Part shown: positions 6,379-32,716 of the stretch, piece after piece | Position numbering within the stretch: position 1 is the first letter of the stretch | How the letters are laid out: each line of letters opens with the position of its first letter | NCBI GenBank assembly: GCA_903948045.1 | Contig: CAJAXU010000276.1 | Location: forward strand, 1-37,451 | Direction: 5' to 3' | From: an uncultured beta proteobacterium | Lineage (GTDB): Bacteria; Pseudomonadota; Gammaproteobacteria; Burkholderiales; Burkholderiaceae_C | Length of the DNA: 37,451 nt | Made by a program: the position numbers and the translations under genes | Notes under the pieces: model-generated | What the model was told of the DNA's origin: nothing | Seen by the model: the letters and a program-made list of their open reading frames with translations, nothing else | Databases searched by the model: none

Positions 6379-8024
6379 GCGTTGGCCTTGAAGGGATGTT
6401 GAAGAATGCAATCGGCACCTTTTTCGCCGATGGCAATCGAGGCAGCGTTGGTGTTCGACGAGGGCATGGTCGGCATAATCGAGGAGTCAATCACCCGCAG
6501 AGCCTGTACCCCTTTGACACGCAACTGCGGGTCGACCACGGCCATGGCATCGGTGCCCATCTTGCAGGTCCCTATGGGGTGCCAAGAGGTTTGTCCACAT
6601 TGGCGGATGTAATCGAGCACCGCCGCATCGTTTTGCACATCCAGCCCGGGGCGGGTTTCGCGCCGGATCAAGCCCTGCAGCGCGGGTTGGCTCGAGACCT
6701 GCCGGGCCAGGCGAAAAGCACGCACCATGTCTTCCTGATCTTGGGGGTGATTCATATAGCGCGGATCCATCAACGGCGCTTCCAAGGCATCTGGGGAATG
6801 CGCATGCACATGGCCACGCGAACGTGGGCGCAACTGGAAGAACCCGATCGCAAAACCCGGAAAAGGATCAAGTCCGGCACCGGGGCTGCGTGTATAACGG
6901 CTGTTGGCGCTCAGGTGCGTCATTTGGATCTTGACGCTGGCGCGCGGCTCGTCGGGATGTGCCGGAACCAGCGCGTGGACCGTCGCCGACGGCGTGGCCA
7001 TCATTCCCCGGCGCGTCAGCAAATATTTGGCGCCCATCCAGGCTTGGCGAATCGGGTTAGAGACAATTTCGTTCAGGCTAATGCGCTGAGTGCATTCAAA
7101 AGTGATGCGCCCCTGCAAGTGATCACACAGGTTTTCGCCCACACCGGGCACATCAGCTTTGACCTCTACGCCCAGCTCACGCAAGCGATTGGCCTGGCCA
7201 ACGCCAGAGAGTTCCAGCAACTGCGGCGACACAATAGGCCCGGCACTGAGGATGACTTCGCGGCGGGCCAGCACTTGCAGCGCTTGGCCATCGTGCAGGT
7301 AGCGAATCCCCACCGCCCGCGTGCCCTCCCACATCACCGATGTGGCCTGAGCCTGCACTTGCAGGGTGAGCTGAGGCGGGGTAAACCGGTCCAGATACGC
7401 TCGCGCCGTGCTGCTGCGCTGCCCCCGATGGGTGGACAACTGCAAATAGCCCACACCCTCGTACTGGGCACCGTTGTAGTCAGGGTTGGCGGCAATGCCG
7501 GCCTGCAAACAGCCCGCATGAAACGCATCTCCCAGGGGCTGCGGGTCATCTGCCAACGACGTGACCTGGATCGGGCCCTGCCGGCCACGGTAGGCGGCGT
7601 CTCCCATGGGCGCGGATTCGAGTTTCTTGAAGTAAGGCAACAAATCCTGATAGCCCCAGCCGGTGCATCCCAGGTCACGCCAATGGTTGTATTCACGTGG
7701 GTCGCCGCGCACATAAATCATGCCGTTGATCGAACTCGAGCCCCCAGGCATCTTGCCGCGTGGCCAATACACCTTCTGGTTGTTGACCTGCACTTGCGGC
7801 TCGGTAAAGAACGGCCACACATACTTGGGGTTTTGCAGCAGTCGGCCAATGCCCAATGGGGTTCGCACCCAAAAGTCATTGTGATGCGCGCCGCCGGCCT
7901 CGAGCAGCAACACGCTGGTGTCAGGCTGTTGCGCCAACCGGTGTGCCAGCGCCGCACCCGAAGAGCCGGCCCCGACCACCACATAGTCGTAGGTGGGCGT
8001 ACTCAAGCCGTGGTCTCCAGCCAC
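6375..8024 (-). CDS. GMC-family (choline dehydrogenase-like) FAD oxidoreductase, copy 1
   Basis: YDYVVVGAGSSGAALAHRLA, GGSSSINGMIYVRGDPREYNHW, TSWHPIGTCKMG, DSSIMPTMPSSNTNAASIAIGEKGAD. A TTG start at 8006 (TTGA overlap with the upstream stop) is also possible. Confidence 0.92.
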   Translation of the reverse strand: MAGDHGLSTPTYDYVVVGAGSSGAALAHRLAQQPDTSVLLLEAGGAHHNDFWVRTPLGIGRLLQNPKYVWPFFTEPQVQVNNQKVYWPRGKMPGGSSSINGMIYVRGDPREYNHWRDLGCTGWGYQDLLPYFKKLESAPMGDAAYRGRQGPIQVTSLADDPQPLGDAFHAGCLQAGIAANPDYNGAQYEGVGYLQLSTHRGQRSSTARAYLDRFTPPQLTLQVQAQATSVMWEGTRAVGIRYLHDGQALQVLARREVILSAGPIVSPQLLELSGVGQANRLRELGVEVKADVPGVGENLCDHLQGRITFECTQRISLNEIVSNPIRQAWMGAKYLLTRRGMMATPSATVHALVPAHPDEPRASVKIQMTHLSANSRYTRSPGAGLDPFPGFAIGFFQLRPRSRGHVHAHSPDALEAPLMDPRYMNHPQDQEDMVRAFRLARQVSSQPALQGLIRRETRPGLDVQNDAAVLDYIRQCGQTSWHPIGTCKMGTDAMAVVDPQLRVKGVQALRVIDSSIMPTMPSSNTNAASIAIGEKGADCILQHPFKANA

Positions 8025-8632
8025 CTTTGCAACGCGGCCAGTTCCTGGCCCATCCGTGAAAATTGCAAGTCAGGCATCTCTGGCAATTCAAAACCTGGGC
8101 CGGTGCGCGGTGGCACCTGCTCCACCATCAGCTCGACAAAGGTCGGGCCAGGCTGGCTTAGCAATTCAGGAAAACGCCTGGCCCAGGTCTCGGCGCTGTC
8201 GATCACTTCGGTATACGCGTACCCCGCTTCTTTCGCCAAGCCCGCGAAAGACAAGGTGGGTTGCAAGGTCGCCAGGTTGCCCAGCCCTGAGAACTGGGTG
8301 CCGTTGCGAATCACCACATGCAAAAAGTGCGCCGGTCGCGCCGTGGCCACTGTGACCAGCCCGCCGAGCTCAAGCAGCAGACTCGCATCACCATCGACCA
8401 CCACCACGGCCCGCTCCGGCATGGCCAGTGCCAAACCCAATCCCAGACCGGCAGCGCCACCCATCAGGGGCACCGAGCTGATCCGTCCAGGCGGTCGCCG
8501 GCTGGCATCCCCGCCCGCCGCTTCCAGTTCAATACGGTCAAAGGCGAACATGGCGCCCATGGTGGCCACCAGCAAAGAGTTGGCAGGGCGCTGCTGAGCG
8601 ACCACAGCACAGGCTTGAATTAAGTTCATCAT
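8003..8632 (-). CDS. TPP-dependent enzyme, beta/C-terminal subunit (sulfopyruvate/phosphonopyruvate decarboxylase ComE-like), copy 1
   Basis: SSVPLMGGAAGLGLGLALAMPERAVVVVDGDASLLLELGGLVTVATARPAHFLHVVIRNG: GDG...N ThDP-binding motif in a ~209 aa stand-alone subunit. Confidence 0.78.
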   Translation of the reverse strand: MMNLIQACAVVAQQRPANSLLVATMGAMFAFDRIELEAAGGDASRRPPGRISSVPLMGGAAGLGLGLALAMPERAVVVVDGDASLLLELGGLVTVATARPAHFLHVVIRNGTQFSGLGNLATLQPTLSFAGLAKEAGYAYTEVIDSAETWARRFPELLSQPGPTFVELMVEQVPPRTGPGFELPEMPDLQFSRMGQELAALQRWLETTA

Positions 8633-8637
8633 GTGCT

Positions 8638-9177
8638 TTATCTCCAGGCCATGGGGGCGGACACCAGCAACACCACGGCGGTGCGCTGGGCATGGGCCAA
8701 GGCGTAGGCCTCGTCCATTCGGACCAAATCGGCCTCTGAATCAAGGCTTAAGAAAGGCACGTTGATGGCGGTTAGCAGCGGCTCCATGATGCGCACCATG
8801 GTCCGGCGTGACACCGTACTGGGCTGGCCCAAGTTGGCATACTCGCGCCCAAACTGGCCGACCATGAACACCAGGGGCATTTGGGCATCCAGGCAGACCG
8901 CGCGCAACGTGTTCATGCAGTTGTACAAACCTTGGTTTTGCATCATCAGCAAAGGCCGCTTGCCACCCAAGGTCAGCCCTGCCGCCACGGTGATCACCTG
9001 GTTTTCGCTGCAACAGCCGACCAGCTTGACTCCTGGCAGCCCCGCTTCAAGCCGCTGGTGCAAGGCCAGTTGCACCCAGTCGGGAACCGTGACCACATGG
9101 TCCACCCGGTTTCGCGCCAGCGCCTCAACACAGGCGGATGCCGGGACGGAGTAATCTTGTAGCTGGACACTGGACAT
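8638..9177 (-). CDS. TPP-dependent enzyme, alpha/N-terminal PYR-domain subunit (ComD-like), copy 1
   Basis: ~179 aa PYR-domain-like: DHVVTVPDWVQLALHQRLEAG...CCSENQVITVAAGLTLGGKRPLLMMQNQGLYNCMNTLRAV; next to the beta subunit. Confidence 0.75.
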   Translation of the reverse strand: MSSVQLQDYSVPASACVEALARNRVDHVVTVPDWVQLALHQRLEAGLPGVKLVGCCSENQVITVAAGLTLGGKRPLLMMQNQGLYNCMNTLRAVCLDAQMPLVFMVGQFGREYANLGQPSTVSRRTMVRIMEPLLTAINVPFLSLDSEADLVRMDEAYALAHAQRTAVVLLVSAPMAWR

Positions 9178-13120: not shown

Positions 13121-14713
13121 TCAGGCCCGCTGTGGCGCCAAGGTCTTGGCGTAAAGTGAGGCGCCTGCCAGGTCCTTCAGGGTGACGGTCATGGCGCGGG
13201 TCTTGGCGTCAATGTCGACCTGGCCGAAGAACTGCATGCCGTTGGTCGGTGGTGCGTTTACTTCGGTCGGGGCTTTCTGGTACATCACCTGCATACCAAA
13301 GGTGGCGTCGGTCTTGTTGGGGCCAAAGCCGCCGGCATTTAGCGGGCCGGAAACAAATTCCCAGAACGGTGCAAAGTCGCTGAACTTGGCTTTGGCCGGG
13401 TCAAAGTAATGGGCGGCGGTGTAGTGCACGTCGGCCGTTAGCCAGACCACGTTCTTGATGCTGGCGCGCTTGATCTCGCGCAGCAGCCGGGCAATTTCCA
13501 GCTCGCGCCCCAGCGGAGCACCATCATCGCCGTTGGCCGAACCCTCCCAGCGGTCGCGGCCCTGAGCGTCCTTGCCGTCGCCCACATGCAGGCTGAGCGG
13601 CATGTCCGCCGCAATCACTTTCCAGGTGGACTTGGAGCGCTTGAGCCCGTCGAGCAACCAGGCGATCTGCGGCCGGCCCATGAAGGCGCTCTCGTCGTTC
13701 TCAATGGTTTGCAGGTTGGCGCTGTTGGGGCCGCGGTAGCTGCGCATGTCCACCACAAACAGGTCCAGTAGCGGGCCCTGCGGCAGGTGGCGATAAACCC
13801 GTTCAGTCTCAATGTCGGCGGTACGCCGCAGCGGCGCGTACTCGATGAAAGACTTGGTGGCACGCGCCACTAACAGGGGCACATTCTTTTCAGTGTAGCG
13901 CTTGTCGCCGCTGACGTCTTTGGAGTCTGACCAGTTGTTGCTGACTTCATGGTCGTCCCACTGCCAGATTTGCGGCACGTCAGCGGCCATGCGGCGAACA
14001 TTGGCGTCCATCAGGTTGTAGCGGTAGCGCCCCCGAAACTCGTTCAAAGTCTCTGCCACCTTGGTCACCTCATCGGTGACGACGTTGTTCCACAGGGTGC
14101 CGTCCGCCAGCTTGACTTGGGCCCGGATCGGGCCGTCAGCATAGATGGTGTCACCACTGTGCAAGAAAAAGTCGGGGTTGACCTTGCGCATCTGCTCGTA
14201 GATTTTCATGCCACCCCAAGCCTCGTTGATGCCCCAACCCTGGCCGGCAGTATCTCCGCTCCATGTGAATCGCACATCACGGCTTGCTTTGGCACCTGCC
14301 ATCGAAGGCAAGCGCAAATGACCGGCTAAGGGCTCAGACAGGACTCGCTCGTTGTGCAGGTCCTGCAGCACCACGCGGTAGAAAATTTCCTGGCCAGCCG
14401 GCAGCCCGACTAAGTCGACCCGTCCGGTGAAATCAGTGTCTTCCATCAGGTACGGGCCGCGCACCCGGGTTGGATTGTTGAAGCTGGCCGTCGTGGCCCA
14501 CTCCAGCCACATCCGTGCCGGACGGTCGCTGCGTGTCCAGACGACCGCACCGTCTGCCTTAGGATCGCCCGACTGAATGCCGTGGGCCATCTGCGGCCGC
14601 ATGGCATCTCGGGTGATGAACGGGGTGGCTGTCTGAGCCAGCGCCAGACTTGGCACAGCCAGACTGGTGCCTGCCAAGGTGGTGCTGGTTGTGAGAAATG
14701 TTCTACGGTCCAT
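13121..14713 (-). CDS. phoD: PhoD-like alkaline phosphatase/phosphodiesterase, Tat-exported
   Basis: MDRRTFLTTSTTLAGTSLAVPSLALA Tat signal; MAHGIQSGDPKADGAVVWTRSDRPARMWLEW; FLHSGDTIYADGPIRAQ; WDDHEVSNNW; VWLTADVHYTAAHYF. Confidence 0.88.
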   Translation of the reverse strand: MDRRTFLTTSTTLAGTSLAVPSLALAQTATPFITRDAMRPQMAHGIQSGDPKADGAVVWTRSDRPARMWLEWATTASFNNPTRVRGPYLMEDTDFTGRVDLVGLPAGQEIFYRVVLQDLHNERVLSEPLAGHLRLPSMAGAKASRDVRFTWSGDTAGQGWGINEAWGGMKIYEQMRKVNPDFFLHSGDTIYADGPIRAQVKLADGTLWNNVVTDEVTKVAETLNEFRGRYRYNLMDANVRRMAADVPQIWQWDDHEVSNNWSDSKDVSGDKRYTEKNVPLLVARATKSFIEYAPLRRTADIETERVYRHLPQGPLLDLFVVDMRSYRGPNSANLQTIENDESAFMGRPQIAWLLDGLKRSKSTWKVIAADMPLSLHVGDGKDAQGRDRWEGSANGDDGAPLGRELEIARLLREIKRASIKNVVWLTADVHYTAAHYFDPAKAKFSDFAPFWEFVSGPLNAGGFGPNKTDATFGMQVMYQKAPTEVNAPPTNGMQFFGQVDIDAKTRAMTVTLKDLAGASLYAKTLAPQRA

Positions 14714-14772
14714 GAGCGGCTCCTGAAGGGTTAATGAATGTGACAGCGATGGGTGCAGTGTGGTCCGCTGGT

Positions 14773-14790
14773 GTGTCAAGCCAATGACGG
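14773..14790 (-). promoter_or_regulatory. Candidate Pho box upstream of phoD
   Basis: Minus strand CCGTCAT-TGGC-TTGACAC: two heptamers with 11-bp period, about 60 bp before the phoD ATG. Confidence 0.45.
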
Positions 14791-14823
14791 GCTGGGTCCA
14801 TAGAAACGTCATCAAAGGTTCAT

Positions 14824-15366
14824 TTGAACGACACAGAATCTAAGCAGTTAACCCGCTGTTTTGGCGGCGACCCCACGCCACTGTTTATGCGCTCATTCAC
14901 TCTGCCATCCGCCTTTTCCAGCCGTGTCGCCCCTTGGTTAGCGACCTCTTATTTAGGGGCCCTTTCAGCCGTTCTGCCGCTGACGCCTCTGTTCGCCAGC
15001 CTGCTGTTTGGGCGTTTGAAGTACCTGCGGGACTACACCGGCTTTGTCAGGAAAATGCGCATTCACATCGCAGCCTTGCGCGAGGGGCCGGCACAGCATT
15101 ATTTTGAGGACGTGATGGGCCGCGCCAGCGCAGTGCCTGCCGAGATTGCCGGTTCTTGCGTTCAGTGCGGCAACTGCTGCATGGATAAACGCTGCGTTTT
15201 TTTGGAGCCGATCGACGATGGGCGCTACCAATGCGGCATCTACCACTCACCCTTTCGCCGCTTGTCCAACTGCGGCTCATTCCCGCTCAATGCGCACGAC
15301 ATTTCCCGCTATGCCTGTCCCAGTTATCACGTGGTCCATCTGGTGCGCAAGCCCGACACAGAATGA
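14824..15366 (+). CDS. YkgJ-family cysteine-cluster (putative Zn/Fe-binding) protein
   Basis: GSCVQCGNCCMDKRCVFLEPIDDGRYQCGIYHSPFRRLSNCGSFP. TTG start at 14824 or ATG at 14887. Confidence 0.75.
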   Translation: MNDTESKQLTRCFGGDPTPLFMRSFTLPSAFSSRVAPWLATSYLGALSAVLPLTPLFASLLFGRLKYLRDYTGFVRKMRIHIAALREGPAQHYFEDVMGRASAVPAEIAGSCVQCGNCCMDKRCVFLEPIDDGRYQCGIYHSPFRRLSNCGSFPLNAHDISRYACPSYHVVHLVRKPDTE

Positions 15367-16625
15367 GCCGCCCCATGCCACCAGGCTTTTTCCTGATCAT
15401 CGCGGCCCAGTTTGCCTCGGCGCTGGCGGACAACGCGCTGTTGATCGTCACCATCGCCCTGCTGTCCGAACAGGGCTTACCCGTCTGGTGGGCGCCCCTA
15501 CTCAAGTTTGTTTTCACCATCTCCTATGTGGTGCTGGCACCGTTTGTTGGGCCCTTGGCGGATGCGTTTCCCAAGGCGCGCCTGATGGCATGGATGAATG
15601 GGGTCAAGATGCTGGGGGTGCTGGCTCTGTTGCTGGGCGTCAACCCTTTGCTGGCCTTCGCCATTGCTGGCCTTGGTGCTGCAGCCTACGCGCCGGCTAA
15701 ATATGGCCTCATCACGGAGATCGTCGGCCCGCAAGGGCTGGTGCGCGCCAATGGCTGGCTGGAGGTGTCCATCGTCTGCGCCGCGCTCTTGGGCGCTGTG
15801 TTGGGCGGCTTGCTGGTTAATGTTGCGGTGCTCGATGGCCTGCATACGCTGTTGGGTGACGGTGGGCTGCTTGGCGCCTCTCGGCTGGCGCCCTCTATGC
15901 TGCTCTTGCTGCTGGTCTACACCCTGGCAGGGCTGCTCAACCTCGGGATCCCGCGCAGTGGCGCGCGCTACCCAGCCACCGCACTTGACCCTCTGGTCCT
16001 GATCCACGACTTCATACGGGCTAACCGCACACTCTGGCGAGATCGGCAGGGCGGGCTGTCACTGGCGGTCACCACCATTTTTTGGGGCCTGGGTGCCACC
16101 TTGCAATTCGTCGTTCTGAAATGGGCGGGTGATGTGTTGCACCTGCCACTGGACCAGTCAGCCTATCTGCAGGCTGCCGTCGCAATAGGCGTGGTGGTGG
16201 GTGCGGCGTCGGCCGGACGCTGGGTTGCCCTGGACCAGGCAAGACGCGTCTTGCCAGCCGGCGTGCTATTGGGCTTGATGATGCCGATCGTGGCCCAAGT
16301 GTCGGTGTTGTGGTTGGCCATACTGATGTTGGCCTTTGTGGGGATGGTAGGTGGCATTCTGGTGGTGCCACTCAATGCCCTGCTGCAGCACCGTGGCTTC
16401 ACTTTGCTGAGCGCCGGGCGCTCTGTGGCTGTGCAGGGGTTTAACGAAAACTTGAGCGTGCTGTGTATGCTAGGCTTGTATGCAGCCCTGGTGGCCGCTG
16501 AGGTGCCGATCGTACCGCTCATGGCCCTGTTCGGCCTGTCCATCGCCATGGCGATGGCGCTGCTGACTCATATTGCGTTCAGTTCGGTTACGGTCGATCA
16601 GGGCCCGACGCACCAGCACCGTTGA
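15363..16625 (+). CDS. lplT: LplT-like lysophospholipid transporter (MFS)
   Basis: MSRPMPPGFFLIIAAQFASALADNALLIVTIALL...KFVFTISYVVLAPFVGPLADAFPKARLMAWMNGVKMLG...APAKYGLITEIVGPQGLVRANGWLE. Start overlaps the YkgJ stop (ATGA). Confidence 0.82.
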   Translation: MSRPMPPGFFLIIAAQFASALADNALLIVTIALLSEQGLPVWWAPLLKFVFTISYVVLAPFVGPLADAFPKARLMAWMNGVKMLGVLALLLGVNPLLAFAIAGLGAAAYAPAKYGLITEIVGPQGLVRANGWLEVSIVCAALLGAVLGGLLVNVAVLDGLHTLLGDGGLLGASRLAPSMLLLLLVYTLAGLLNLGIPRSGARYPATALDPLVLIHDFIRANRTLWRDRQGGLSLAVTTIFWGLGATLQFVVLKWAGDVLHLPLDQSAYLQAAVAIGVVVGAASAGRWVALDQARRVLPAGVLLGLMMPIVAQVSVLWLAILMLAFVGMVGGILVVPLNALLQHRGFTLLSAGRSVAVQGFNENLSVLCMLGLYAALVAAEVPIVPLMALFGLSIAMAMALLTHIAFSSVTVDQGPTHQHR

Positions 16626-17829
16626 TGCTGGCCTGCTGCATCACCGCCTGCAGCACCGCCTCAAATTGCTGCACGATGCGAGACCAATCCAGCTGCAGGG
16701 CCGTTTGGCGCGCGGCTTGACCTAAACGGGCACGTACGGCTGGCTGCGCGGCCAGCGCCAGCGCGGCCGCCACGAAACTCTCGGCGTCACCCATGGCCAC
16801 CACCCGGCCGTTGGCCTCGTCAACCAGCCACTCCGCTGCAGCCGCATCGTTAAAGGCAACCACCGGCAAGCCGCTGGCCATGGCTTCGGTGGTGACGTTG
16901 CCAAACGTCTCGGTCATGCTGGGCATCAAAAAAAGGTCGACGCTGGCGTAGTGCTCAGCCAGCACGCTGCCACGCAGCTGGCCGGTGAAGATGGCGTCGG
17001 GGCACTGCGCCTGCAGCGCCTGGCGCATTGGGCCATGCCCGACCAGCACCAAGCGGGCTCTCGGCACCCGCTGCTTAATCTCCTGATAGGCCTGGACCAG
17101 CAGCGTGAGGTTTTTTTCGGGCGCGAGTCGACCCACACTGAGAACTGCCAGGTCACCGGTGTCTAACCCCCATTGCTCGCGCAGTGTCTGCTGACGACGG
17201 GCGGGGTCGAATGCTGCTGTGTCAACACCGCGGCTCACCACCTTCAGCTGGTGGAAGCCAGCTGCAGCTAATGCGCCTTGCAAAGCCTTGGTAGGCACCA
17301 TGGTGCAGTGGGCCCGGTTATGGAACTTGCGCAGGTAGCCCATGATGGGCTTTTGCAAGAAGCCGACGCCATAGTGGGCGCTGTAGCTCTGGAAATTGGT
17401 GCGGTAATCGGTCGATATTGGTAGCTTCAAATACAGGGCTGCGCGTAAAGCCGACCAGCCCAGTGGGCCTTCGGTCGCGATATGGACCACATCAGGTCGG
17501 CGTAGCTGCCACAGCTTGATCAACGCCCCCTTGGAGGGTAAGCCCATCCGCAGCTCGGGGTAACGCGGGATCGGCAGGCCCCGCATGAGTACCTCATGGA
17601 ACCCCGGTCTCAGGGCGTCTTGACTCGCCTGGTCGGTTCCACTTTGCCGGGGCCGGATCAGTTGCACGTCATGGTTGTTGCCGCGCAGACCTTCGACCAG
17701 CCGGGCAAGCGTCAGGGCCACGCCATTGACTTCGGGTGGATAGGTTTCTGTCACCACCGCCACGCGCCAGGAGCGCTGCTTGGCGGGGAAGTTGTCAACC
17801 TCGAACTCGGGGTTTGCGTCTGTATCCAT
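16588..17829 (-). CDS. GT4 glycosyltransferase (MgtA/Agt-like), candidate glycolipid synthase
   Basis: RVAVVTETYPPEVNGVALTLARLVEGL...GVDTAAFDPARR...LSVGRLAPEKNLTLLVQAY...PSMTETFGNVTTEAMASGLPVVAFN. Start taken at MDTDANP. Confidence 0.85.
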   Translation of the reverse strand: MDTDANPEFEVDNFPAKQRSWRVAVVTETYPPEVNGVALTLARLVEGLRGNNHDVQLIRPRQSGTDQASQDALRPGFHEVLMRGLPIPRYPELRMGLPSKGALIKLWQLRRPDVVHIATEGPLGWSALRAALYLKLPISTDYRTNFQSYSAHYGVGFLQKPIMGYLRKFHNRAHCTMVPTKALQGALAAAGFHQLKVVSRGVDTAAFDPARRQQTLREQWGLDTGDLAVLSVGRLAPEKNLTLLVQAYQEIKQRVPRARLVLVGHGPMRQALQAQCPDAIFTGQLRGSVLAEHYASVDLFLMPSMTETFGNVTTEAMASGLPVVAFNDAAAAEWLVDEANGRVVAMGDAESFVAAALALAAQPAVRARLGQAARQTALQLDWSRIVQQFEAVLQAVMQQASINGAGASGPDRP

Positions 17830-17894
17830 CAGCCCATATTGGCAGCGCTTGATAACAAAATGATGACACGCCTGTTCTCGGATATGAAACACCC

Positions 17895-17912
17895 GTGTCA
17901 TGCGAGTTTCAC
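17895..17912 (+). promoter_or_regulatory. Candidate Pho box in the GT4 / membrane protein divergent intergenic region
   Basis: GTGTCAT-GCGA-GTTTCAC, 11-bp period, about 70 bp before the 17982 start. Confidence 0.5.
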
Positions 17913-17981
17913 ATTCGCTCGCTAGAGTGACCCTGCCTTTTCACTACCCCGGGCGCCATGCCTGCTATTTTCGAGGTCGCT

Positions 17982-18590
17982 ATGAACCGCTATTTGCAAG
18001 AGCTCAAGACGCAACGTTGGGACGACCACCGTTATTACCATCACAGCCGCATCAACCAGAGTTTGCACTTGCTCAGTGCGATCGTGTTTGTCATCTCGTA
18101 CGTCTTGTTGTTCATTGAGCCGGCCTGGGCTGCCTTGCTCGCCTGGTCGGTGTCCATGACAAGCCGTCAAGCCGGGCACTTCTTTTTTGAGCCACGCGGC
18201 TATGACGAAGTCAATCAGGCCACCGACGCCCATAAAGAGGCGATCAAGATCGGCTACAACATTGAGCGAAAAATTGTGTTGCTGGTGATCTGGGCTGCCG
18301 CGCCTGTGGTGCTTTGGCTGGAGCCGACGCTATTTGGGCAGATTGCAGCTGCCGGCAATTGGCTTGAGTTTTTGCACGACGTGGGCATTGCCTGGCTGGC
18401 CCTGGGCGTGGCCGGCCTGCTGTTCCGTGTCGGGCAACTCTGGATACAGCAAGACATGTGGACCGGCCTGGTGTGGGCAAGCAAGATCATTACCGATCCT
18501 TTCCACGACATCATGCTGTACCACAAGGCACCCCTGGCGCTGCTTCGCGGTGAGCTGATCGACCCGATGACGCATGCGCGTCATCGGTGA
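17982..18590 (+). CDS. Small His-containing multi-pass membrane protein, possibly DUF962/Mpo1-like
   Basis: MNRYLQELKTQRWDDHRYYHHSRINQSLHLLSAIVFVISYVLL...TSRQAGHFFFEPRGYDEVNQATDAHKEAIKIGYN. Several hydrophobic helices; the GHFFFEP segment is only suggestive of Mpo1. GAGG RBS upstream of 17982 (17958 also possible). Confidence 0.55.
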   Translation: MNRYLQELKTQRWDDHRYYHHSRINQSLHLLSAIVFVISYVLLFIEPAWAALLAWSVSMTSRQAGHFFFEPRGYDEVNQATDAHKEAIKIGYNIERKIVLLVIWAAAPVVLWLEPTLFGQIAAAGNWLEFLHDVGIAWLALGVAGLLFRVGQLWIQQDMWTGLVWASKIITDPFHDIMLYHKAPLALLRGELIDPMTHARHR

Positions 18591-18613: not shown

Positions 18614-20260
18614 TCAGCGGGGTTGGCGCAGCATCTCTCTGAAGATGCCTTTGCGGATGGTCTGGTTGCTTTGCACCGGGCCGTCCCACCAGCCGTCATC
18701 CTGCATGGCCTGGGCAGCCCCGACAAAGGCTTGAACCACGGCCTCAAAGTCACCGTCGGTGTAGTTGAGACTGAAGATCAGTCGAGCACTTCCCACCCAA
18801 CTCAAGGCCAGGCCGTGTGCCCGCAGATAAAACTGAAGCATCCAGTTGTACCGGGAGGGTTGGGTATACAACACTGTCCAGACAGTCGACATGTTCGCTA
18901 CTCGCACCGGCAAGCCCTGCTGTTCAAGTCTGGCGTTGAGCTGGCGCGCCCTGCCGTCCCAGCGTTCGTCGATGCCATCGTACAGTGCGAGGATCTCGGG
19001 GGTCTCAATGGCATCCAGAAAAGCCTGCATCGCGCCCATCACATAGGGGTGGGCATTGAAGGTGCCGCGGGCAAAGCAGATGTCGGCCGGCCGGTTCTCC
19101 CGGTAGCGCTTCATCAGGGCAGCCCGGCCACAAACCACACCCACCGGCAGGCCACCGCCCAGTGTCTTGCCGTAGGTCACCATATCGGCCTGGACACCAA
19201 AATAGGCCTGCGCGCCGCCAGCAGCCAGCCGGAACCCGAGAAACACCTCGTCAAAGATCAGCACGATGCCGCGCTCGGTGCAGACTTGCCGCAGGCGCTG
19301 CAGCCAGGCGGTGTACGCGGCACGGTCGTAGGCCACCTTACGGCTGCTGTCAACCAGCGACGAGTCGCCCGGTGCGGGCGCATTGGGGTGCAAGGCCTGC
19401 AAGGGATTGATCAAAACACAGGCAATGTCTTTTCGGGTGCGCAGCACGTGCAGGCTGCGCTCGTCCATGTCCTTGAGGGTATGGGTTTCGCGCGGCGGCA
19501 GCGGGTTGCCGGGGCCGGGCTGCACGTCTTCCCACCAGCCGTGGTAGGCGCCGCAAAATCGCACCAGGTGGCTGCGCCCGGTGTGGTAGCGGGCCAGCCG
19601 CACGGCCTGCATCACGGCCTCGGTGCCCGACATGTGAAACGACACCTCGTCCAGCCCAGAGATACGTTTGAGCCGGGTCACGTTGTCCAGCACACAGGGG
19701 TGGTAGGCGCCGAGCACCGGCCCCAGCGCCTGCACCGTGCGCTGGCCGGCTTCGATGCAAGTTTTATAGAAATCGTACCCCAAAAGATTGACGCCGTAAG
19801 AGCCGGTCAGGTCGTAAAACACATTGCCATCGAGGTCGGTCACCGTCACCCCCTGCGACGACTGCAGAAAGCTGCCGCTTTTGATGTGGCGGCCCAGGTA
19901 ATCGGTGTATTGGTAGGGCACCCGGTAGCGCCCGGTGAACTGCATGTCCGAAATGATGGCCCGAGCGCTGGCTGTCATCGCAGCGCTCTTGGCATAACGG
20001 GCGTCATACAGGGCTGCCAGCCGGGCAAAGCCATCACGCCGCCGCTGCACCACCGGGCCGGTGGCGTGGTCCGAGTTGAAGAAAGTGGCTTCGTCATAGG
20101 CATAGCCGGGCAAAAGCCCTGCGATGCGCTTGGCAATGCGCGAATGACCAGCGAGAGAGCGGTGCTTTGCCCGCGACAGTTCAAGCCGGCGTTTGGCTTT
20201 GGGTAGGGCCCAGGCCAGGACGCCCAGGGCCAGTAAGGGAAGGGCCATGCTGTTGTCCAT
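18614..20260 (-). CDS. Class III aminotransferase (glutamate-1-semialdehyde aminomutase-like) with N-terminal hydrophobic anchor
   Basis: MALPLLALGVLAWALPKAKRR anchor; SGTEAVMQAVRLARYHTGRSHLVRFCGAYHGWWEDVQPG; IVLIFDEVFLGFRLAAGGAQAYFGVQADMVTYGKTLGGGLPVGVVCG. RBS GGAGGAATTG before the ATG. Confidence 0.85.
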   Translation of the reverse strand: MDNSMALPLLALGVLAWALPKAKRRLELSRAKHRSLAGHSRIAKRIAGLLPGYAYDEATFFNSDHATGPVVQRRRDGFARLAALYDARYAKSAAMTASARAIISDMQFTGRYRVPYQYTDYLGRHIKSGSFLQSSQGVTVTDLDGNVFYDLTGSYGVNLLGYDFYKTCIEAGQRTVQALGPVLGAYHPCVLDNVTRLKRISGLDEVSFHMSGTEAVMQAVRLARYHTGRSHLVRFCGAYHGWWEDVQPGPGNPLPPRETHTLKDMDERSLHVLRTRKDIACVLINPLQALHPNAPAPGDSSLVDSSRKVAYDRAAYTAWLQRLRQVCTERGIVLIFDEVFLGFRLAAGGAQAYFGVQADMVTYGKTLGGGLPVGVVCGRAALMKRYRENRPADICFARGTFNAHPYVMGAMQAFLDAIETPEILALYDGIDERWDGRARQLNARLEQQGLPVRVANMSTVWTVLYTQPSRYNWMLQFYLRAHGLALSWVGSARLIFSLNYTDGDFEAVVQAFVGAAQAMQDDGWWDGPVQSNQTIRKGIFREMLRQPR

Positions 20261-20280
20261 CAATTCCTCCGGTTAGAAAT

Positions 20281-20320
20281 ATGACAAACGTACCCAACTT
20301 AATTGACAGGCATATGAAAA
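20281..20320 (-). promoter_or_regulatory. Candidate tandem Pho boxes upstream of the class III aminotransferase, covering the psd start
   Basis: Minus strand TTTTCAT-ATGC-CTGTCAA-TTAA-GTTGGGT-ACGT-TTGTCAT: units at 0/11/22/33 (third unit degenerate). Confidence 0.45.
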
Positions 20321-21192
20321 CTAATTTATTCCAACGCATTTTTCTACAAGAAGACCTGAACTTCCTGCTGACCAACCGTGTGCCGCGCCTGCTGCTGACG
20401 CGCTGGATGGGCTGGTTCAGCCACCTGCGCAACCCCTTGCTGACGCGATGGTCGATCCGGGTCTGGCGCCTGTTCACCGATCTCGATCTGAGCGACGCCC
20501 GACAGCAGCACTTTGCCAGCCTGCACGACTGCTTTACCCGTGAACTGGTGCCTGGTGCGCGCGTGATCGACCCCGACCCGGCGGCGCTGTGCAGCCCCAG
20601 TGACGGCATCGTGGGGGCTTGCGGGCGCGTGGTGGATGGGATGGTGCTGCAGGCCAAGGGTTTCCCATATTCGATCAGCGAGCTGTTTGGCCCCAGCCAG
20701 GACACCAGCGTGTTTCGAAATGGCAGCTACATCACGCTGCGTCTGACGTCGAGCATGTACCACCGCTTTCATGCACCGCAAGACATGACGGTTGAGCATG
20801 TGACCTACCTCAGTGGCGACACCTGGAATGTGAACCCGATTGCGCTGGCGCGGGTCGAGCGCCTTTTTTGCCGCAACGAACGTGCCGTGCTGCGCGCCCG
20901 ACTGACCGGCAGCGGCCATCCGATCGCGCTGGTGCCGGTGGCGGCGATTCTGGTGGCCAGCATCCGGTTGCATTTTCTAGATGTGCTACTGCACTTGCGC
21001 TATCGCGGCGCCAACGAGATTCCCTGCACTGCGAACTGCGTCAAGGGCCAGGAGCTGGGCTGGTTTGAGCATGGCTCCACCATCATCGTGTTCACCCCGC
21101 CGAGCTTTAACTTGTGTGACGGGATTGAGACCGGCCGCCAGGTCCGGATGGGGCAGGGCTTGATGCGGGTGGCCGCGACCGTCAGTGCGTGA
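20281..21192 (+). CDS. psd: Phosphatidylserine decarboxylase (Psd-like)
   Basis: CSPSDGIVGACGRV, YLSGDTWNVNPIAL, autocleavage-type motif GWFEHGSTIIVFTP. Start 20281 or 20314. Confidence 0.82.
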   Translation: MTNVPNLIDRHMKTNLFQRIFLQEDLNFLLTNRVPRLLLTRWMGWFSHLRNPLLTRWSIRVWRLFTDLDLSDARQQHFASLHDCFTRELVPGARVIDPDPAALCSPSDGIVGACGRVVDGMVLQAKGFPYSISELFGPSQDTSVFRNGSYITLRLTSSMYHRFHAPQDMTVEHVTYLSGDTWNVNPIALARVERLFCRNERAVLRARLTGSGHPIALVPVAAILVASIRLHFLDVLLHLRYRGANEIPCTANCVKGQELGWFEHGSTIIVFTPPSFNLCDGIETGRQVRMGQGLMRVAATVSA

Positions 21193-21240: not shown

Positions 21241-21280
21241 TTGTCATCGTTTTGCCGCAGCAACGTCATAACACGGTCAC
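21241..21280 (+). promoter_or_regulatory. Candidate tandem Pho boxes upstream of ugd
   Basis: TTGTCAT-CGTT-TTGCCGC-AGCA-ACGTCAT-AACA-CGGTCAC: units phased at 11 bp, ending 47 bp before the ugd ATG. Confidence 0.5.
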
Positions 21281-21327: not shown

Positions 21328-22713
21328 ATGAAAGTCAGCGTGTTTGGCGCCGGTTACGTCGGTCTGGTGACGGCGGCCTGCCTGGCAGAAATGGGCAACA
21401 GCGTGGTTTGTGTGGATGTCGATGCAAAGCGCGTGACCGATTTGCAGCGTGGTATCTCTCCCATCCATGAACAAGGCCTGGAGCCACTGTTGCAGCGCAA
21501 CGCGGCAGCCGGCCGACTGACCTTTACCAACGATCTGGCCGTGGCCGTGAACCATGGCACCATCGTGTTCATCGCCGTGGGCACGCCTGCTGCTGAAGAT
21601 GGCTCTGCCGATTTGCAACATGTCTTGGCCGTGGCGCAGTCTATTGGCGAGCACATGAACGACTACAAGCTGGTCGTCAACAAGAGCACAGTGCCGGTTG
21701 GCACCGCCGACCGGGTGCGCGAGACCCTGGCCGCTGCCCTGCGCCAACGCGCTGCGGCGCTGCCCTATGCTGTGGTGTCCAACCCGGAGTTCCTTAAGGA
21801 GGGTGTGGCCATTGACGACTTCATGCGGCCGGACCGGGTGATCGTAGGTTGCGACAACGACCAGGCGGCTTTGTTGATGCGGGCCCTGTATGCGCCGTTT
21901 CTGCGCAACCGCGACCGGCTGATGATGATGGATGTGCGCAGCGCCGAACTCACCAAGTATGTGGCCAATGCCATGCTGGCCACGCGCATCAGCTTTATGA
22001 ACGAGATGGCACTGCTGTCGGAGAAGGTGGGCGCTGATATTGAGCAAGTTCGGCTTGGCATTGGCAGTGACTCCCGCATCGGCAGCCATTTTCTGTATGC
22101 CGGCTGTGGTTGGGGCGGGTCGTGCTTTCCCAAGGACGTGCGCGCCCTGGCCCACATGGCCACCGAGGCCGGCACCGAGCTGAGCATGCTGCAAGCCACC
22201 CAGGCCATCAATGACCGGCAACGCGGCCTGTTGGGGCGGCGCGTGGTGGCCCGCTTTGGCCCCGACCTGAGTGGCCTGCAGTTTGCGGTGTGGGGACTGT
22301 CCTTCAAGCCGGGCACGGACGACATGCGCGAAGCGCCGAGCGTGAACCTGATTGACGAGCTGCTGCAGCGCGGCGCCCGGGTGCAGGCCTTTGACCCGGT
22401 GGCAATGGTCGGTGCCAGCGCACGTTGGCAGGCGCAGCCTGGCTTTATGGCCTGCAAAGACCCGCTCGCGGCAACTGAAGGGGCAGACGCCTTGATTGTG
22501 GTGACTGAGTGGCGCGAATTTCGCAGCCCGGACTTCGCCGAGCTGGCCCGGCGCTTGCGGCAACCCGTCGTCTTCGATGGCCGCAACCTGTATGACCCAA
22601 CGCTGATGGCCGAACTGGGTTTTGAGTACACCGGCATTGGCAGATCGACGGCAGAGGTGCCCAGCACAACGGACCATGCCGGGCGTTCGCCCTGGGTGGC
22701 GTTAGCCGCCTGA
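21328..22713 (+). CDS. ugd: UDP-glucose 6-dehydrogenase
   Basis: MKVSVFGAGYVGLVTAACLAEMGNSVVCVDVD, NPEFLKEGVAIDDFMRPDRVIVG, GCGWGGSCFPKDVRAL, SFKPGTDDMREAPS. Confidence 0.95.
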   Translation: MKVSVFGAGYVGLVTAACLAEMGNSVVCVDVDAKRVTDLQRGISPIHEQGLEPLLQRNAAAGRLTFTNDLAVAVNHGTIVFIAVGTPAAEDGSADLQHVLAVAQSIGEHMNDYKLVVNKSTVPVGTADRVRETLAAALRQRAAALPYAVVSNPEFLKEGVAIDDFMRPDRVIVGCDNDQAALLMRALYAPFLRNRDRLMMMDVRSAELTKYVANAMLATRISFMNEMALLSEKVGADIEQVRLGIGSDSRIGSHFLYAGCGWGGSCFPKDVRALAHMATEAGTELSMLQATQAINDRQRGLLGRRVVARFGPDLSGLQFAVWGLSFKPGTDDMREAPSVNLIDELLQRGARVQAFDPVAMVGASARWQAQPGFMACKDPLAATEGADALIVVTEWREFRSPDFAELARRLRQPVVFDGRNLYDPTLMAELGFEYTGIGRSTAEVPSTTDHAGRSPWVALAA

Positions 22714-23787: not shown

Positions 23788-24180
23788 CTAAGCTGGCTGC
23801 ACCGGCACGCTTTGGGCAGTCTTTGACGCTTTTTTGACAAGCGCCTTGTCAAATGTCAGAAACGCTTGGACGCCACCGCTCAACCCCAGGTGCAAGGCAT
23901 CGGCAAAATCAAGTCCCTCACCGTACGCGTCGAGCGCAGCACTCACGATGTCTGCTTGCGGCAGCGTAAAGTTGGGCAGGTTCAGCAGCAAGCCAACGCC
24001 CTGTCGAATCGCTGCTGGCGTGCAGTCGTTCGACTCCAACACCCAGACCAACTCCAGCAACACGGTCACTGGCGCGGTGAATTGCTGATCCGAAGCCAGC
24101 AAAGCGCGGGCACGTTTGTACTGGGCTGCGTCATCCCGTAGCAGCAGCCGGGCCAGCACATTGGTGTCGAGCGCCCTCAT
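23788..24180 (-). CDS. VapC-type PIN-domain toxin
   Basis: MRALDTNVLARLLLRDDAAQ...VLLELVWVLES...GLDFADALHLGLS...FLTFDKAL: conserved acidic PIN residues. Confidence 0.88.
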   Translation of the reverse strand: MRALDTNVLARLLLRDDAAQYKRARALLASDQQFTAPVTVLLELVWVLESNDCTPAAIRQGVGLLLNLPNFTLPQADIVSAALDAYGEGLDFADALHLGLSGGVQAFLTFDKALVKKASKTAQSVPVQPA

Positions 24181-26405: not shown

Positions 26406-26513
26406 TTCCGGCCAGCTCGGGCTTTGCCGGGACGCTACGTCTCTGCGCCTCTGTTCCAAGCCTGTTCAACCCAGCCTAGGTTAGTCGGGGTCAAGCCGCT
26501 GTCATATCGGTAT

Positions 26514-26558
26514 CATCTGTCTGAATATTGTAAATATAAGTTAATATTCAGTCAGATG
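26514..26558. promoter_or_regulatory. 16-bp-arm inverted repeat, candidate operator upstream of the nitronate monooxygenase-like gene
   Basis: CATCTGTCTGAATATT-(13 nt)-AATATTCAGTCAGATG, one mismatch between arms, about 70 bp before the 26628 ATG. Confidence 0.6.
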
Positions 26559-26627: not shown

Positions 26628-27728
26628 ATGACCCAAGTTTTTCATGATCGATGGATGACCCCATTGGTGCGGCGTCTGGGCCTGACGAACCCGATATTCG
26701 GGTTCTCTCATGGTCGTGAAGTCGTCGCGGCAATCAGTCTGTCTGGGGGCCTGGGAGTGTTGGGTGCCACGCGCAACACACCTGAGGAGATCGAAGAGCA
26801 CCTGAAATGGATACGGACGCAGATCGGTCAACGCCCGTTCGGTGTGAACCTGGTTTTACCAAGCGGCATGCCTGAGGCCGACGATAGGGCGCAGATCGAA
26901 GCACAATTGCCCGTGGGCCACCGAGCCTTTGTGCAAGGCCTGTACGAGCAGTTCCAGGTGCCTGCGCCGACCCGTGCGGGTGTGAGATCCCGCTTTGTGC
27001 GGTCCAACGAGATGGCAGCTCGACAGATCGAAGTCATCTTGGCCTCAGACGTGGATATGGTCGCCTGCGGCATCGGTGCGCCTGATGATGTCGTGCAGGC
27101 CTTGAAGCAAAGAGGCAAAAAGGTCATCGCGCTGGTCGGGTCCCCGCGCCATGCGCGCAGCGCCCTCACAAAACCGCTGGATATTTTGGTCGCCCAAGGC
27201 TATGACGCCGGCGCCCACACCGGAACCATCGGGACCTTCAGCCTGGTGCCACAAATTGTCGATCTGGCTATGGCTGCGGGGGTGCCCGTACTTGCTGCGG
27301 GTGGCGTGGCCAGCGGGCGGCATATCGCGGCAGCGCTGGCCATGGGCGCGCAAGGCGTCTGGATGGGCACCGCCTGGCTGACCACCGAGGAGTATCGGAC
27401 TCACCTCGCGCCCATTACCCTGGAAAAGTTGCTGGCCGCCGGCATAGAAGACACGGTGATCTCACGCGCAGACAGTGGCAAGACCCTGCGCCAGATTCGC
27501 AGCGCATGGAGCGAGGCCTGGGCGGCTCCAGATGCGCCGGCACCGCTCAAGATGCCGCTACAGGACATCCTGGTGGGCGATTTATTGGGTGCCATCGACG
27601 ACCACGACATTGGACCGCTGATGCATTACCCCGCTGGCCAGAGCGTGGGTTATTTCAACCACATTGAGTCTGTGACAGAGCGGATTGAGCGCCTGCTAAA
27701 CGAAACAGTCCATGCCCTGCAGGGTTGA
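26628..27728 (+). CDS. Nitronate monooxygenase / 2-nitropropane dioxygenase-like flavoprotein
   Basis: NPIFGFSHGREVVAAISLSGGLGVLGATRNTPEEI, GYDAGAHTGTIGTFSLVPQIVD, VPVLAAGGVASGRHIAAALAMGAQGVWMGTAWL. Confidence 0.85.
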   Translation: MTQVFHDRWMTPLVRRLGLTNPIFGFSHGREVVAAISLSGGLGVLGATRNTPEEIEEHLKWIRTQIGQRPFGVNLVLPSGMPEADDRAQIEAQLPVGHRAFVQGLYEQFQVPAPTRAGVRSRFVRSNEMAARQIEVILASDVDMVACGIGAPDDVVQALKQRGKKVIALVGSPRHARSALTKPLDILVAQGYDAGAHTGTIGTFSLVPQIVDLAMAAGVPVLAAGGVASGRHIAAALAMGAQGVWMGTAWLTTEEYRTHLAPITLEKLLAAGIEDTVISRADSGKTLRQIRSAWSEAWAAPDAPAPLKMPLQDILVGDLLGAIDDHDIGPLMHYPAGQSVGYFNHIESVTERIERLLNETVHALQG

Positions 27729-29910: not shown

Positions 29911-31536
29911 TTAGCCTTGGTCAGACAAAATCATGTCTGCGGCCTTCTCGCCGATGGCGATAGAGGGAGCATTGGTATTCGACGTTGGCATGGTCGGCAT
30001 GACCGATGAGTCCACCACACGCAAACCATCCAGGCCATGTACCCGCAAACGATCATCCACCACGGCCATGGCATCGCGGCCCATGCGGCAGGTGCCGATG
30101 GGATGCCAAGAGGTTTGTCCTGAGCGCTTGAGGTAGTCAAGCAGTGCCTCGTCACTGTCGGTTTCCGGGCCCGGGCGCGTCTCACGCACGATTAAAGCTT
30201 GCAGTGGCCCACTGCTGGCGATTCGGCGCGCCAACCGGGCAGCCCGCAGCAGGGCACGGCAATCGCCTTCCGCGGCAAGGTAGTTTGGGTCGATGATGGG
30301 CGCCTCGGACACATCGGTGCTGCGTGAATGCACACTACCGCGAGACTCTGGGCGAAGCTGAAAAAAACCGATACCAAAGCCCGGGTAGAGGTCCATCCCA
30401 GCCGCAGGGTTATTGGCATAACGATCAGCCCCGGTTTTATGGGTGATCTGGATTTTTGCGTCGGGCTGCAGATCGTTCGGGTCGGTGCGGGCCAGAGCGT
30501 GAACGGTGGCGAGTGGCGCCGCCATGAAGCCCCGGCGCGTCAGCAGGTAATGAGCACCCATCAAAGCCTGGCGCAGCGGGCTGGCCAAAATCTCATTCAG
30601 CGTGATGGCCTTGGTGCATTCATAGGTCAACCGGGACTGGAAGTGATCGATCAGGTTCTCACCAACCCCAGGCAGCGCATGCACGACCGGCAACCCCAGT
30701 CGCTGCAGCAGCGCGGGCTGACCCACCCCCGACAACTCCAGCAATTGCGGCGACTGAATGGGCCCCGCCGACAGGATCACTTCGGCCCTGATGCGAACGT
30801 GGCAGATTTGACCCTTATGGCGGTATTCGACGCCGACTGCGCGTCGGCCCTCAAAGACGATGCGCGAGGCCACGGCTTGAGTCCGCATTTCCAACCCGGT
30901 TGGCGCATCGGGGCCCAGATAGCCCTTGGCAGTGCTGCAGCGCCTCCCTTGCTGGATAGAAACTTGCAGATAGCCCACACCCTCGTAGCATCCGCCGTTG
31001 TAGTCAGGGGTGGACGGTATACCTGCTGCATTGCAAGCGGCCAAAAAAGCGTCTGGCAACTCACTAGGGCGATCAGCCAAGGCCGTCAGCCGGATCGGAC
31101 CGCTACGCCCCCGTTGTGCCGGATCGCCAAAGTTGGTTGACTCGATGCGTTTGAAATAGGGCAACAAATCATCCCAGCCCCAACCGCGATTGCCGAGAGC
31201 ACGCCAGCGGTCATATTCTGCCGGGTCACCACGCACCCACAAGTTGCCGTTGACCGAGCTTGAGCCGCCTGGCACGCGACCGCGCGGCCAATAGACCTGC
31301 TGCCCTCCCAGGTGGGCCTGTTTTTCGGTGTGAAAAGGCCAAACGTAACGCGGGTCCATCAACAGCTTGCCCACGCCTAAGGGTACTTCGACCCAAAAAT
31401 CCCGGTGGCGGGGCTCGCCCGCTTCAAGCAACAAGACACGAGTACCTGGTCGATCCGCCAACCTGCGTGCCAGCGCAGCCCCAGACGAACCAGCGCCAAT
31501 GACCACATAGTCAACGGTCTGTGTGGGTGCGATCAT
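29911..31536 (-). CDS. GMC-family FAD oxidoreductase, copy 2
   Basis: VDYVVIGAGSSGAALARRLADRPG, GGSSSVNGNLWVRGDPAEYDRW, TSWHPIGTCRMGRDAMAVVD, VVDSSVMPTMPTSNTNAPSIAIGEKAAD. Confidence 0.92.
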   Translation of the reverse strand: MIAPTQTVDYVVIGAGSSGAALARRLADRPGTRVLLLEAGEPRHRDFWVEVPLGVGKLLMDPRYVWPFHTEKQAHLGGQQVYWPRGRVPGGSSSVNGNLWVRGDPAEYDRWRALGNRGWGWDDLLPYFKRIESTNFGDPAQRGRSGPIRLTALADRPSELPDAFLAACNAAGIPSTPDYNGGCYEGVGYLQVSIQQGRRCSTAKGYLGPDAPTGLEMRTQAVASRIVFEGRRAVGVEYRHKGQICHVRIRAEVILSAGPIQSPQLLELSGVGQPALLQRLGLPVVHALPGVGENLIDHFQSRLTYECTKAITLNEILASPLRQALMGAHYLLTRRGFMAAPLATVHALARTDPNDLQPDAKIQITHKTGADRYANNPAAGMDLYPGFGIGFFQLRPESRGSVHSRSTDVSEAPIIDPNYLAAEGDCRALLRAARLARRIASSGPLQALIVRETRPGPETDSDEALLDYLKRSGQTSWHPIGTCRMGRDAMAVVDDRLRVHGLDGLRVVDSSVMPTMPTSNTNAPSIAIGEKAADMILSDQG

Positions 31537-31548
31537 CGAGCAAGAACC

Positions 31549-32166
31549 TCAGGCGGTCGATGTGGAGAGCCAGGCACTGAGCGCTTCTGCTTCCTGCCCC
31601 ATGCGGCTGAACTGACGATCAGGCACTTCCGATTGCGGCATTGCTGGCCCGAAACGAGCCGGCGCAGGTGTGATGGTCAGTTCAACAAAACCTGGGCCAA
31701 CCATAGCCATAAGGCTGGGCAACTGCGCGATCCAGTCATGCAGCGAGTCAATCCGCCGGGCATGCTTGTAACCGGCCGCCAAGGCCAGGGCAGGAAAGTC
31801 GACGCATTGGTTGCCAGGCACCGTCAAATTGGAGCCCCCTGTGAATTGCGTGCCATTGTTAGCCAGTATATGGAGGTACTTGGCCGGCGCCTGCGTACTG
31901 ACGGTTACAAGCCCCCCAAGTGCCATCAACAGGCTTGCGTCGCCGTCAACCACCAATACCTGTCGGTCAGGCCTGGCCAAGGCCAGGCCCAGTCCCAGAC
32001 CTGCAGCGCCGCCCATCAAGGGTACCGAGCCCATGCGACCCTCATGCATTTGCAGCTGGTCGAAAGCAAACATCGAGCTCATGGTCGCGACCACAATGGC
32101 CTCACCCCCGGCGGCCGCACGCGCCGCCACAATCGCGCCGCAAGCCTCTGTGATCGTCATCGGCAT
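31549..32166 (-). CDS. TPP-dependent enzyme, beta/C-terminal subunit (ComE-like), copy 2
   Basis: Start MPMTITEACGAIVAARAA; GSVPLMGGAAGLGLGLALARPDRQVLVVDGDASLLMALGGLVTVSTQAPAKYLHILANNG. Confidence 0.78.
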   Translation of the reverse strand: MPMTITEACGAIVAARAAAGGEAIVVATMSSMFAFDQLQMHEGRMGSVPLMGGAAGLGLGLALARPDRQVLVVDGDASLLMALGGLVTVSTQAPAKYLHILANNGTQFTGGSNLTVPGNQCVDFPALALAAGYKHARRIDSLHDWIAQLPSLMAMVGPGFVELTITPAPARFGPAMPQSEVPDRQFSRMGQEAEALSAWLSTSTA

Positions 32167-32185
32167 GGGTTTCTCCGGTACCGGT

Positions 32186-32716
32186 TCATGTCCAAGCCAA
32201 GGGTGCCCCCACCAGCAGTGCTGTGGCGGTTCGCCTCGAATGCGCATGCTCAAAGGCGGTGCGTACCTGGTCAAGATCCGACGCCTGCTCCAACCGAAAA
32301 TATTCGACGCCAAGCGCGGCCAGTACGGGCTCCAACAGCCTGACCATATTGCGGTTTGAGTGCGCTGGATCATGCCCAAAGTTGTCGAATTCACGACCGA
32401 ACTGCCCAACCATGAACACCAAAGGGATCTGCGCATCGAGCGCCACCGCGCGGATGGTATTAATGCAGGCGTACAGGCCCTGATTCTGGATCACGATCAC
32501 CGGTCGCTGGCCCCCGATGGTCAGGCCTGCGGCCACAGTGACAGCCTGATCCTCGGCGCAGCAAGGGACCAGCGTGAGCCCGGGCTCCCCAGACTCCAGG
32601 CGCACGTGTAGGGCTAATTGCACCCAGTCCGGAACGGTGACCACATGGTCGCAGCCGACCTCACGGAGCCTTTGCAGCACGGCAGAAGCGGGTATGTGCG
32701 GGTCCATGGTGGTCAT
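32186..32716 (-). CDS. TPP-dependent enzyme, alpha/N-terminal subunit (ComD-like), copy 2
   Basis: DHVVTVPDWVQLALHVRLESGEPGLTLVPCCAEDQAVTVAAGLTIGGQRPVIVIQNQGLYACINTIRAV; paralogue of 8638-9177. Confidence 0.75.
   Translation of the reverse strand: MTTMDPHIPASAVLQRLREVGCDHVVTVPDWVQLALHVRLESGEPGLTLVPCCAEDQAVTVAAGLTIGGQRPVIVIQNQGLYACINTIRAVALDAQIPLVFMVGQFGREFDNFGHDPAHSNRNMVRLLEPVLAALGVEYFRLEQASDLDQVRTAFEHAHSRRTATALLVGAPLAWT

Follow-up and report, generated by a model that had tools for sequence, protein, structure and literature searches.

Two divergent genes stand head to head in the 37,451-nucleotide stretch of DNA analysed here, which we call the window. The minus-strand gene (18614–20260) encodes AT3, a class III PLP aminotransferase of 548 amino acids with a hydrophobic N-terminus (Pfam PF00202, E 1.1e-33), and the nearest solved relatives of this protein are the aminotransferase domain of mycosubtilin synthase and GSA aminomutases. 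The plus-strand gene, psd2 (20314–21192), encodes a phosphatidylserine decarboxylase paralogue that matches PF02666 with 182 bits and carries the catalytic His and pyruvoyl-forming Ser motifs of that family (YHRFH and HGST). As read from the sequence, AT3 starts at the ATG at 20260 (−), with the Shine-Dalgarno motif GGAGGA (20265–20270, −) ahead of it, and psd2 at the ATG at 20314 (+); the two starts are 53 bp apart, or 20 bp if psd2 uses the in-frame alternative ATG at 20281, in agreement with the roughly 20–50 bp given in the first-pass annotation of this DNA.

From 20320 to 20303 the minus strand reads TTTTCAT-ATGC-CTGTCAA, followed by 10 bp and then by TACGTT (20287–20292). The two 7-bp direct repeats, with an 11-bp period (heptamer 1, 20320–20314; spacer ATGC; heptamer 2, 20309–20303), form a candidate Pho box facing AT3 that scores 18.3 of 23.3 bits with a matrix built solely from eight E. 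coli heptamers, and TACGTT is the predicted −10 element of AT3. The CAT that ends heptamer 1 is the exact complement of the psd2 start codon (20314–20316, +). This arrangement, TTTTCAT-N4-CTGTCAA-N10-TACGTT, is nearly the same as that of the K-12 phoB promoter (TTTTCAT-AAAT-CTGTCAT-N10-CATAAT), but in the window a divergent gene has its start codon within the box. The 10-bp spacing from box to −10 is likewise that of the K-12 phoA (CTGTCATAAAGTTGTCAC-N10-TATAGT) and pstS (CTTACATATAACTGTCAC-N10-TATTTT) promoters, and of the pstS promoters of six genomes of the same genus, in which the same matrix, as a control, finds boxes with N10 spacing. The first-pass annotation had proposed a longer array, and four heptamers can indeed be read at an 11-bp period (TTTTCAT, CTGTCAA, then GTTGGGT at 20298–20292 and TTGTCAT at 20287–20281, −); only the first two are conserved among relatives, and we reject the four-part array. 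The last two (20281–20298) cover the spacer and the −10 and reach into the bases that follow it; they are probably not functional.

Taken alone, the AT3 Pho box is statistically ordinary and weak, as it departs from CTGTCATN4CTGTCAT at three positions, and 2.4 sites of this quality are expected in the 37-kb window. The exact 30-bp pattern of box, N10 and TA has its sole zero-mismatch match in the 4.8-Mb assembly at this site, from which the pattern itself was written; these genome-wide searches of the assembly were pattern searches rather than a ranking by matrix. Because the count for a lone site is not significant, the evidence must be comparative.

A search of genome contigs for AT3 yields 80 relatives with flanking sequence. 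Among the carriers in the L027–L040 set are cultured isolates of Paucibacter, Roseateles and Sphaerotilus. We find AT3-facing Pho boxes above the cut-off (95% of the null) in 76 of 86 promoters, with a median score of 14.6 against 2.0, whereas boxes facing psd, scored with the same matrix, stay at chance (5/86); the relatives share ancestry, so the loci counted do not amount to independent events. Across a set of 53 non-redundant promoters, strong conservation upstream of psd2 is confined to the box and to the TA of the −10 of AT3, with T1 and A2 of the latter each kept at 92–94%. The distance from AT3 to the box varies between about 18 and 158 nt. Promoters of housekeeping psd genes are almost devoid of Pho boxes by the same matrix (2/24 facing, 2/24 opposite). 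This conservation lifts the predicted box above chance and agrees with the first proposal of a PhoB-type promoter directed at the aminotransferase. In distant genomes (L178–L181) AT3 has Pho-like boxes and no psd2 was found beside it, and in a second clade of the same genus (L008–L012) the AT3-Psd2 pair has no recognisable Pho box between its genes; in that clade GT4, a glycosyltransferase described below, adjoins Psd2. A plasmid of Sphingomonas parapaucimobilis (L093:11102–13674) carries a Psd2/AT3 pair with a Pho-like box of 17.9 bits and, about 10 kb from the pair, a class I/II aminotransferase, an acyl carrier protein and an NAD(P)H-binding protein that resemble a sphingolipid gene set. 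PhoB itself is encoded in the window's assembly (contig C237, 328 bits against a family cut-off of 296), where it follows pstB-phoU; pstS has no match in this assembly of 741 contigs, which is 82% complete with 5.5% contamination.

The overlap between box and start codon, noticed in the first-pass annotation as heptamers covering the psd initiation codon, is real and stronger than was stated there. In 67 of 76 loci heptamer 1 supplies, through its CAT or CAC, the in-frame psd2 start (ATG or GTG), and in 15 of the loci this codon is the only possible start. In most of the remaining loci psd2 starts just downstream of the box, with the start moved 5–25 nt away in some lineages, and the offset stays at 0 in most lineages. 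We reject the ATG at 20281 as the general psd2 start: this codon could serve in the window and in a small number of close relatives, but 15 relatives have no in-frame start other than the heptamer-1 codon. psd2 is largely without a Shine-Dalgarno motif (a 4-base core is present in 1/53 promoters, as compared with 25/52 for AT3), and no sigma70 promoter facing psd2 is recognisable, since scores in that direction equal those of shuffled sequences.

We find that psd2 is not the only psd gene in this assembly. Asked for in the first-pass annotation, a check of the genome for another psd turns one up on contig C519, and in a 24-genome check all 13 cassette-bearing genomes have a psd elsewhere, while of the 11 genomes that lack the cassette 10 have a single psd. 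The two proteins, Psd1 and Psd2, are about 30% identical within the genus and fall into separate clades with 100/100 support. Psd2 shares the sequence family and the catalytic His and Ser motifs of the housekeeping enzyme (E. coli Psd, PDB 6L06/7CNW), and differs from it in its low identity to Psd1 of its own genus, its HGST motif, its separate clade and its presence always as an extra copy in the genomes checked. HGST is retained in 70/76 loci and YHRFH in 74/76, which suggests that Psd2 is probably an active pyruvoyl decarboxylase. The C519 copy, the 13/13 count and the separate clade lead us to reject psd2 as the housekeeping gene; by these sequence comparisons it appears to be a dedicated paralogue, a spare decarboxylase copy rather than the cell's source of phosphatidylethanolamine. 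Since it is a spare copy, the AT3 Pho site is unlikely to switch off ordinary membrane-lipid synthesis, and the earlier suggestion that PhoB occludes phosphatidylethanolamine synthesis here is not supported.

AT3 and psd2 belong to a larger conserved gene set. In nearly all sufficiently long relatives, Psd2 is divergent from AT3, which is followed by an Mpo1-like gene and a GT4 glycosyltransferase, often with LplT and UDP-glucose dehydrogenase. In the window, the Mpo1-like membrane protein (17958–18590, +; likely start 17958 or 17982) scores 23.5 bits with PF06127, just under the cut-off of 24, and is a neighbour in nearly all relatives. GT4 (16588–17829, −; probable start 17829) resembles glycolipid synthases, the lysophospholipid transporter LplT (15231–16625, +; NF008397, 479 bits) is a frequent neighbour, and a PhoD-type phosphatase (13121–14815, −; PF09423, E 7e-97) marks the cassette edge. 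On the other side, downstream of psd2, lies the gene for the UDP-glucose 6-dehydrogenase, UGD (21328–22713, +).

Several of these genes have Pho boxes of their own. A box facing the Mpo1-like gene (GTGTCAT-GCGA-GTTTCAC at 17895–17912, +, then N10 and TAGAGT) has counterparts above 9.5 bits in 57/76 relatives, and one facing GT4 (GTGTCAT-CATT-TTGTTAT at 17852–17869, −) in 54/72; upstream of UGD lie four heptamer-like repeats with an 11-bp period (TTGTCAT, TTGCCGC, ACGTCAT and CGGTCAC, 21241–21280, +), and 9/17 relatives have UGD-facing boxes. LplT, without a box in the window, and psd2 have essentially no Pho box facing either gene among the relatives. GT4 and the Mpo1-like gene (17820–17990) form a second divergent cassette pair, with one Pho box each way about 25 bp apart and both conserved in relatives. 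The Mpo1-like gene has at its end (18563–18587) a perfect GC-rich inverted repeat, CCGATGACGC-ATGC-GCGTCATCGG, without a T-run, and many relatives have long hairpins in the convergent Mpo1/AT3 gap. Outside the cassette, the window holds three heptamer-like repeats (GGGTCAA, CTGTCAT and GTATCAT at 26488–26516; best pair 16.6 bits) upstream of a nitronate-monooxygenase-like gene with a likely start near 26628, two modules that resemble each other and lie among CoA ligases and substrate-binding proteins, each with thiamine-diphosphate-enzyme-like subunits after a GMC-type oxidoreductase (6375–9177 and 29911–32436), and a single PIN-domain protein (23788–24180) that may be the toxin of a toxin-antitoxin pair.

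From this gene content we infer that the cassette remodels lipids during phosphate starvation. The enzyme families point to lipid glycosylation, and our guess, on the same basis, is that AT3 and Psd2 make an amine-bearing lipid. A close described parallel is the PlcP-Agt pathway of Pseudomonas aeruginosa, a phosphate-starvation lipid renovation in which glycosyltransferases act on diacylglycerol with UDP-glucose or UDP-glucuronate (PMC8528852). The cassette resembles it in having a glycosyltransferase and a presumed link to phosphate starvation, and UGD would supply UDP-glucuronate by analogy; in contrast, the class III aminotransferase, the Psd paralogue and the Mpo1-like protein are further components here, and no PlcP lies beside the cassette at this locus. 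A Pho box has also been proposed ahead of Acinetobacter olsB, which serves the synthesis of an amine-bearing lipid that contains no phosphorus (PMC11828411). The enzymes differ here, however, and with no OlsB-family (PF13444) match in the window's assembly we reject an ornithine-lipid route. Literature searches found no description of a Psd/aminotransferase phosphate-starvation cassette, and the combination of Psd2, class III aminotransferase, Mpo1-like protein and lipid glycosyltransferase, often with LplT or UGD, is apparently undescribed.

We consider it highly probable that the site is a PhoB-dependent sigma70 promoter for AT3 within a conserved phosphate-starvation lipid cassette, and that psd2 is a paralogue whose regulation involves no switch away from phosphatidylethanolamine. 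When phosphate is scarce, PhoB would bind TTTTCAT-N4-CTGTCAA, and RNA polymerase would use the −10 TACGTT, 10 bp downstream, to transcribe AT3. AT3, the Mpo1-like gene, GT4 and often UGD would each be served by its own Pho promoter, and Psd2 would work in the AT3 pathway with its start codon built into heptamer 1. PhoB activation of AT3 is well supported by the comparison of promoters; we infer PhoB binding, the phosphate response and the pathway, and the layout, its conservation, the paralogy and the second psd are read directly from the genomes.

A chance match, or a mere echo of conserved psd2 coding sequence, could explain a single such box, given that the single-sequence count is not significant, but we judge this very improbable. 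The best-conserved bases include those of heptamer 2 and the −10, neither of which is part of psd2, and a natural rearrangement separates the two features: in three genomes (L030, L032 and L034) an inverted AT3 shares the strand of its neighbours (Mpo1-like > AT3 > psd2), the gaps are short and Pho boxes precede the first gene, and the psd2 start there keeps ATGAAAA without retaining heptamer 2. As heptamer 2 does not stay with the psd2 start where AT3 is flipped, the box belongs to AT3. The same tandem loci argue for a joint need for AT3 and psd2, and for those three genomes they imply joint induction. A response of both genes in the same direction, which the first-pass annotation had named as counting against its switch, is thus implied by these genomes rather than demonstrated.

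The direction in which psd2 responds in the common layout can be read in several ways. Joint induction with AT3 is a real possibility, if short of probable: transcription could start in both directions at the AT3 −10, which is pseudo-symmetric, or transcripts from the Pho promoter of the Mpo1-like gene could run on through AT3 into psd2 in the manner of noncontiguous operons, which are known (PMC7154746) and in which, as in the window, an opposite-strand gene lies between two same-strand genes. Besides the co-oriented loci, the shared strand of the Mpo1-like gene and psd2 in the common layout fits such induction, as do Mpo1/AT3 gaps that in some relatives are under 15 bp or overlapping and free of hairpins. 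However, T-tailed terminators in the Mpo1 direction occur in 12/76 of these gaps (1 in shuffles), many gaps have long hairpins, and the psd2-facing promoter scores no higher than shuffles. The opposite response, a one-site switch acting on the paralogue, in which PhoB and the polymerase recruited to AT3 block psd2 initiation or elongation and psd2 falls as AT3 rises, seems to us rather unlikely. It would make sense of a box placed so regularly on, or just upstream of, the start codon of a core cassette gene that has no box facing it, and in E. coli bidirectional promoters, where divergent starts share one promoter region as they may here, strong activation one way can repress the other, according to one study (PMC12825309). 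Yet there is no recognisable psd2 promoter to block, in the tandem genomes psd2 lies behind AT3 and behind Pho boxes on the same strand, where the pathway apparently wants both genes on, and a start codon that forms part of a binding site is self-locking and would persist through inertia alone. Low, constant psd2 expression from a weak upstream promoter, with compaction as the sole reason why the start codon falls within the Pho box, is doubtful in its turn: ATGAAA is a common gene start that happens to match TTTCAT, psd2 has almost no Shine-Dalgarno motif and its start has moved away in some lineages, but the AT3 side of the box has drifted widely while the psd2 offset remains 0 in most lineages.

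Under our preferred reading, a PhoB-dependent AT3 promoter in a lipid cassette, heptamer 1, which makes up the upstream half of the box, doubles as the translation start of the divergent gene. It is a speculative and, in our estimate, unlikely extension that this deeply conserved dual-function site, through PhoB occupancy or the recruited polymerase, sets the AT3:Psd2 ratio in a new phosphate-starvation lipid pathway in which an aminotransferase and a pyruvoyl decarboxylase lead to an unknown amine-bearing lipid. The site offers a testable case in which the same bases make up a start codon and part of the predicted binding site of a regulator. Psd2 is labelled as ordinary Psd in databases, a caution that not every psd gene belongs to the phosphatidylethanolamine pathway, and the predicted phosphate-starvation lipid cassette to which it belongs is common in Burkholderiales and related groups.
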